DNA of 64,000 bases. Source: Apus apus (taxonomy: Eukaryota; Chordata; Aves; Apodiformes; Apodidae). Below are positions 2,424-2,714 of this stretch, one piece after another. The notes beneath the pieces were generated by a model. That model saw only the letters and a list, made by a program, of their open reading frames with translations. It searched no databases and was not told the origin of the DNA. Location: NCBI RefSeq assembly GCF_020740795.1, contig NC_067282.1, positions 140,416,858-140,480,857 of the forward strand, in the 5' to 3' direction. The number at the start of each line of letters is the position of its first letter. The first letter of the stretch is position 1. Position numbers and translations under genes: made by a program.

Positions 2424-2714
2424 TTAAGATTCTACTTGATTTTCTTCTTCAAATGAGTCATATTTCACTTCTTCATAGTCTTTCTCCAGGGCAGCCAGGT
2501 CCTCTCGGGCCTCTGCGAACTCTCCCTCCTCCATGCCTTCACCCACATACCAGTGCACAAAAGCTCTCTTGGCATACATCAGATCAAACTTGTGGTCGAG
2601 CCTTGCCCAAGCCTCTGCAATGGCCGTGGTGTTGCTCAGCATGCAGACTGCTCGCTGAACTCTGGCCAGGTCTCCACCAGGAACTACTGTGGGAGGCTGG
2701 TAGTTGATCCCAAC
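2424..2714 (-). CDS. TUBA8: Alpha-tubulin exon 5 (residues 350-445, stop)
   Basis: The acceptor is TTTCCAG and the exon starts [14 protein letters not shown]. It carries the well-conserved [13 protein letters not shown] region (here [16 protein letters not shown]) and [14 protein letters not shown]. The tail after EKDYEEV is [13 protein letters not shown] followed by TAA. The tail keeps a run of glutamates that could be glutamylated, but has no terminal EEY or EEF. Confidence 0.96.

Follow-up and report, generated by a model that had tools for sequence, protein, structure and literature searches.

Gene content of the TUBA8 region

The window, by which we mean the whole 64,000-nucleotide stretch analysed here (C1:140416858-140480857), carries on its minus strand, from position 7113 to 2424, an intact alpha-tubulin gene of five exons with a 445-AA product, designated copy B (Table 1). 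Its four introns all have GT-AG borders, and the 445 codons form a single open frame with neither a stop nor a frameshift across 1338 coding bases. It has the vertebrate alpha-tubulin layout, an exon ending in the initiator ATG followed by four further exons. The predicted protein contains the Tubulin GTPase domain (PF00091, E 8.5e-60) and the Tubulin_C domain (PF03953, E 7.5e-52), and its top matches among solved structures are alpha-tubulins; no structure named TUBA8 was found among the best 60 of 141 or the best 60 of 69 matches. An ATTAAA motif lies about 170 nt past the stop codon (window 2257-2252). Upstream of exon 1, seven X-box-like (RFX) sites with two or fewer mismatches were counted in 600 bases vs. 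2.55 expected from the window average, the matches being weak and overlapping. Intron 3 contains a perfect (AAT)17 microsatellite (window 4381-4431).

A search of the whole genome (1.10 Gb, 110 contigs) revealed that TUBA8 is present twice: copy A, likewise intact, lies a short way outside the window on its left side, 12.7 kb from copy B as measured from exon 4 to exon 4. It has 447 codons and GT-AG introns. Further to the left, on the same strand, are exons of a ubiquitin protease: two of the four candidate frames pass the Pfam UCH cut-off (E 1.8e-14 and 5.2e-9), a third fails to reach it (E 0.0095) and the fourth gives no match. We read the motif GLYNIAQSCCLNSVLQVF of this neighbour as USP18, a name that rests on motifs recognised by eye. 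The gene order is therefore USP18-like gene, copy A, copy B, PEX26, which matches the mammalian block with TUBA8 doubled; mammals presumably have one TUBA8 copy at this locus vs. the two seen here. The PEX26 and USP18 neighbours are a likeness to mammalian TUBA8. We considered whether copy A could be an assembly artefact of a duplicated haplotype and rejected this, because its exons 2 and 3 are only 82% and 87% identical to those of copy B at the DNA level and are thus too divergent.

The preliminary description had placed the window gene in the TUBA8 slot next to PEX26, and Pex26 Pfam matches on three open frames bear out this position, but the gene is not the lone occupant of the slot, since copy A lies beside it. 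The synteny of the TUBA8 region is described as common to chicken and Xenopus in PMC8934532, and at least three of TUBA8, PEX26, USP18 and MICAL3 are mentioned together in 19 papers. The Ensembl identifiers of chicken TUBA8B (ENSGALG00000013045) and USP18 (ENSGALG00000013057) are near-consecutive, which hints at adjacency and proves nothing.

Two further features of the window were noted. The stretch at about 36000-40000 is very GC-rich (62.5%) with G/C-rich tandem repeats and, by its position, is perhaps the promoter of the next gene, which in mammals is MICAL3. At 58102-58881 on the plus strand there is a LINE reverse-transcriptase frame (RVT_1), avian CR1-like by eye.

Table 1. Coordinates of copy A, copy B and PEX26 features (window positions unless prefixed C1)
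Feature	Position	Strand	Remark
Copy A exon 1	C1:140413834-140413836		placed by the single ATG/GTRAG that the scanned stretch has ahead of exon 2
Copy A exon 2	C1:140409789-140410011
Copy A exon 3	C1:140408931-140409079
Copy A exon 4	C1:140407691-140408371
Copy A exon 5	C1:140406962-140407249
Copy B exon 1, coding part	7111..7113	-	initiator ATG, GTAAG donor directly after
Copy B exon 2	5573..5786	-	contains the lumenal K40 loop
Copy B exon 3	4644..4792	-
Copy B exon 4	3515..4195	-	657/681 bases identical to copy A
Copy B intron 4	2715..3514	-	part in the conversion tract; extra stretch absent from copy A
Copy B exon 5	2424..2714	-	body near-identical to copy A; tail differs
Copy B C-terminal tail and TAA stop	2424..2465	-	no encoded terminal Tyr, Phe or Glu-Glu
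PEX26 exon in open frame	12409..12939	-	Pex26 profile 121-226, E 1.8e-29
PEX26 exon in open frame	13142..13459	-	Pex26 profile 77-123, E 1.9e-26
PEX26 exon in open frame	13655..14482	-	Pex26 profile 20-69, E 1.9e-13

C-terminal tails of the two copies

Read on the minus strand from 2459 to 2424, the end of copy B is GAC TCA TTT GAA GAA GAA AAT CAA GTA GAA TCT TAA, and the protein thus ends in ...NQVES. The earlier reading of EEENQVES followed by TAA, with no encoded terminal Tyr or Phe, agrees with these letters, which lie within a complete gene. The C-terminal Phe of TUBA8 is absent from both copies; the human TUBA8 tail ends in EGEEF according to the tail table of PMC5648057, whereas copy B ends in QVES and copy A in DGE. 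Counted after the EV residues, the net charge is -4 for the tail of copy B, -6 for copy A and -7 for human TUBA8, which makes copy B the less acidic.

An exon that might replace this end was sought within the window. The other two frames across the tail of copy B are closed, and the 43 codons past its stop include one Glu only. On the same strand from 2460 down to position 1, and in intron 4, the only EEY-, EEF- or GEE-like ends or acidic triplets are a DDE at 1667 and the EEE that belongs to the gene's tail. The best donor-like site inside exon 5, at 2550, scores 7.65 bits, equal to the real donor 3 (by a simple frequency table), and would cut far upstream of the tail. We accordingly rejected the idea that another exon, lying in intron 4 or downstream, supplies a different tail, none being seen within the window to position 1. 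The string EEENQVES was not found in the literature searched by text. Copy B most likely lost its aromatic end through substitution and shortening of the last codons.

A TUBA8 ending in EEY or EEF at the same locus was also looked for in the neighbouring gene. Copy A ends in EEENDGE, and the DNA then reads TAA TTT TAA. Compared with the human EEENEGEEF, the stop stands where the last Glu but one would be, and the former Phe codon can still be read behind it, so that copy A most simply lost its aromatic end by one nonsense change. Alpha-tubulin without its last two residues, known as Δ2-tubulin, is made post-translationally. The end of copy A is likewise the human TUBA8 tail minus precisely its final two residues, but in this case the shortening is written in the gene, whose stop comes two codons early, and copy A thus encodes a Δ2-type tail (...NDGE).

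The K40 loop

The K40 loop encoded by exon 2 of copy B is of a TFIDQPS type, three codons shorter than that of copy A and free of lysine; this single length change is in frame. In mouse Tuba8, residues 35-45 read TFGTQASKIND, with Ala in place of K40 and a Lys two residues downstream, as quoted from PMC5384676. Copy B shares with TUBA8 a non-canonical loop that starts with TF and has no K40. It differs in having no loop lysine at all, whereas copy A carries Lys at 42, as does mammalian TUBA8 in the same source. The absence of K40 and of a terminal Tyr from mammalian TUBA8 is already known from PMC5384676, in which the importance of Lys42 is left as an open question; the loop of copy B has dispensed with lysine and the gene is still constrained.

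Assignment to TUBA8

When the tail of copy B was compared with seven different human tails (the different sequences in the table of PMC5648057), TUBA8 scored best at 90, followed by TUBA4A at 78. A seven-row tree of exons 2-3 places copy A, copy B and human TUBA8 in one group with support 100/99, and a seven-row tree of exons 4-5 does the same with 100/98; the exon 2-3 tree gives no order among the three. The human TUBA8 row in the trees and in the replacement count below agrees with print in its tail and at A40/K42, the parts that were compared. Membership of the window gene in the TUBA8 branch, as proposed in the preliminary description, is thus upheld by tail score and tree grouping. Likeness to mammalian TUBA8 extends to the DSFEEEN-type tail, the replaced K40 loop, the lack of a terminal Tyr and, for the mammalian gene, testis expression (PMC5384676 and PMC5648057). 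Human TUBA4A also has no encoded terminal Tyr (...EGEE; table in PMC5648057), but it ends in Glu-Glu, which copy B does not.

A TUBA4A product, with its Glu-Glu end, can in principle be tyrosinated.

Divergence and gene conversion between the copies

The synonymous divergence (dS) between copies A and B is 0.88 in exon 2, 0.33 in exon 3, 0.078 in exon 4 and 0.018 in the exon 5 body; for exons 2 and 3 combined, dS is 0.60 and dN/dS 0.22. About 33 of 80 synonymous sites differ in exons 2-3; for exon 4 taken together with the exon 5 body the figure is 13 of 214 (Fisher p 5e-12). The exon 5 body has one difference in 83 codons, and codons 280-431 of copy B have two differences from copy A, both synonymous. 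In intron 4 the two copies agree at 98.6% of 296 aligned bases, the outermost 60 bases on each side of the intron are the same in both, and blastn gives no comparable match for introns 1-3. The last 13 codons of copy B carry all seven nonsynonymous differences of exon 5, DSFEEEN just before the end is kept in both copies, and no similarity was seen by eye between the 3′ flanks. Diverged exons 2-3 together with alike exon 4, intron 4 and exon 5 body point to recent gene conversion on an old duplicate. The comparison shows a conversion tract that homogenised exon 4, intron 4 and the exon 5 body and spared both the K40 loop and the tail, ending just before the latter.

In the 383 otherwise invariant columns of the protein alignment, 16 are changed in copy B alone and three in copy A alone (sign test p 0.004). 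Branch lengths for exons 2-3 are 0.37 for copy B vs. 0.084 for copy A. The 33 nonsynonymous differences of exons 2-3, in both lineages together, compare with about 69 expected on copy B alone if it were neutral, which indicates that the evolution of copy B is constrained and not free.

Weighing of alternative explanations

The preliminary description took the window gene for the TUBA8 ortholog itself, in derived form, and not for an additional gene. As the sole, derived TUBA8 ortholog of the species it would explain a TUBA8-like gene adjoining PEX26, yet a second intact TUBA8, less derived and with fewer unique changes, stands between it and the USP18-like gene, and we regard this explanation as highly improbable. 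With copy A beside it, the window gene belongs to a tandem pair, in which it evolves the faster, and TUBA8 is not single-copy here. Slightly less improbable, but still doubtful, is the view of copy B as a pseudogene in decay, with the odd tail and K40 loop as marks of lost function. The long branch of copy B in exons 2-3 would fit such decay, as would eight exon 2 columns that are invariant apart from a change in copy B, among them E71D and P72Q (near the nucleotide site), and gene conversion could keep exons 4-5 intact without selection on copy B; the undamaged frame, the four canonical introns, the in-frame change of the loop and the low dN/dS in exons 2-3 argue the other way. Taken together, copy B is probably a TUBA8 paralog that has diverged but still functions, and that forms with copy A an old tandem pair between USP18 and PEX26 in which both copies lost the aromatic end differently. 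The genome is probably avian, to judge by its size and the CR1-like element; a query with chicken egg-white lysozyme gave no match in it.

Two other explanations concern the meaning of the tails. The missing aromatic end may be neutral drift in a dispensable isotype, neither tail having a special role; the two copies lost their ends by different changes, a third alpha-tubulin gene, on C9, runs to ...GDEYLEN, and Tuba8 knockout mice are fertile (PMC5384676). Most of both proteins is strongly conserved, however, as is the DSFEEEN before the end, and we find drift conceivable but somewhat less than an even bet. The chances are about equal for and against copy B being the ortholog of the testis-specific chicken alpha-tubulin of Pratt, Okamura and Cleveland (1987), in which case only its address would be new. 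The preliminary description held that an alpha-tubulin of chicken testis with no terminal Tyr in its coding sequence had already been published. The 1987 paper, by its title and as cited in print, bears this out, and the lack of an encoded Tyr is the likeness of that isotype to copy B. Chicken TUBA8B is, moreover, named as a spermatid marker in testis in PMC12690856, and either copy A or copy B could be its counterpart. Against this, the genome has three kinds of non-Tyr alpha-tubulin tail besides the TUBA4A-like one (QVES, NDGE and GDEYLEN), so that other candidates for the Pratt isotype exist.

Expression reported for related genes

According to PMC5384676, Tuba8 in mouse testis appears in spermiogenesis only, first at the acrosome and then in the spermatid cytoplasm, and is absent from spermatozoa. 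TUBA8B was used as a reference or candidate reference gene in four studies that, by their titles, are not on testis; in the three that name their choice it is not among the most stable genes. One study reports TUBA8B to be differentially expressed in broilers with a breast-muscle disorder. The use as a reference gene and the change in broiler muscle speak against strict testis specificity. A turkey seminal-plasma study (PMC11432639) names TUBA8 within a gene cluster. By analogy with mouse Tuba8, developing spermatids would be the likeliest place of use of copy B.

Possible consequences for tubulin modification

Tubulin tyrosine ligase adds Tyr to Glu-Glu ends, and carboxypeptidases remove Tyr or Phe. 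As neither QVES nor DGE fits these enzymes, the products of copies A and B are expected to stand permanently outside the tyrosination cycle: they would be substrates neither of the ligase nor of the Tyr/Phe carboxypeptidases, and they would offer no EEY/F ligand to CAP-Gly proteins. Nor could the product of copy B, having no lysine in its K40 loop, be acetylated there. Microtubules containing either product would be in a fixed, never-tyrosinated state, and those with copy B also unacetylated at the loop. A more far-reaching proposal, which we put forward tentatively and consider rather unlikely as a whole, is that this is an ancient bird tandem pair in which copy A supplies a gene-encoded Δ2-type end and copy B has no modifiable end or loop lysine, with conversion keeping the bodies alike and the modification regions apart, so that spermatids possess two fixed tubulin-code states.

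We found no report of bird TUBA8 tails or of the tandem pair in the titles, abstract openings and passages searched. Four points are likely new: the doubling of TUBA8 in tandem; the Δ2-type end that a nonsense change gave copy A, the Phe codon surviving as a relict; the disappearance from copy B of its last loop lysine; and the conversion that spared both modification regions. The usual way to study the tail and K40 modifications of alpha-tubulin is to block the enzymes. A natural pair of isotypes with near-identical bodies, unable to carry these modifications, would provide a clean genetic test of their role in sperm development. Bird TUBA8 should not be taken as single-copy.

Other alpha-tubulin genes

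No relatives were found in viral contigs. Two loci were found in contigs of prokaryote genomes, one of them in JAIYDP010000217.1 (4455-5771), from a Verrucomicrobiaceae MAG, with a near full-length alpha-tubulin match, 76% identical over query residues 1-436 and 1317 bases. We rejected this as a prokaryotic relative; it is probably eukaryotic contamination.

Among the 20 matches listed from the whole-genome search, which are the best candidates only, at least nine alpha-type loci reach 86% identity or higher; the other listed matches are 30-76% identical and include a stop-containing fragment on C4 and part of the ninth locus. A terminal Tyr is encoded in four of the nine listed loci, two of which have broken frames, and the statement that most alpha-tubulins end in EEY is thus a poor fit to this genome. 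The Tyr-ending loci on C24 and C31 were seen in part: the C24 stretch has no exon 2 match, and the C31 stretch, which starts at the contig edge, shows exons 4-5 only. Those without a terminal Tyr are copies A and B, two TUBA4A-like genes (EEEGEE) and the C9 gene (GDEYLEN).

At C1:204917001-204936000 (204.92-204.93 Mb) we noted an inverted pair of Tyr-ending alpha-tubulin genes, 99.8% identical over 1242 bases across exons 4-5. Exon 2 of one member contains an in-frame stop, the frame of the other is broken at a G run in exon 4, and an extra partial exon 5 in one stretch ends in six Glu. The two TUBA4A-like genes lie in tandem at C7:16865001-16874800, about 5.5 kb apart, both ending in EEEGEE and both with the canonical SDKTIGGG loop. 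At C9:26798001-26807800, with exon 5 from 3396 downwards, an otherwise canonical alpha-tubulin ends in GDEY-LEN-stop (codons TAT TTA GAA AAC TAA), as though the stop that once followed Tyr had changed into a Leu codon, leaving the Tyr buried three residues from the end.
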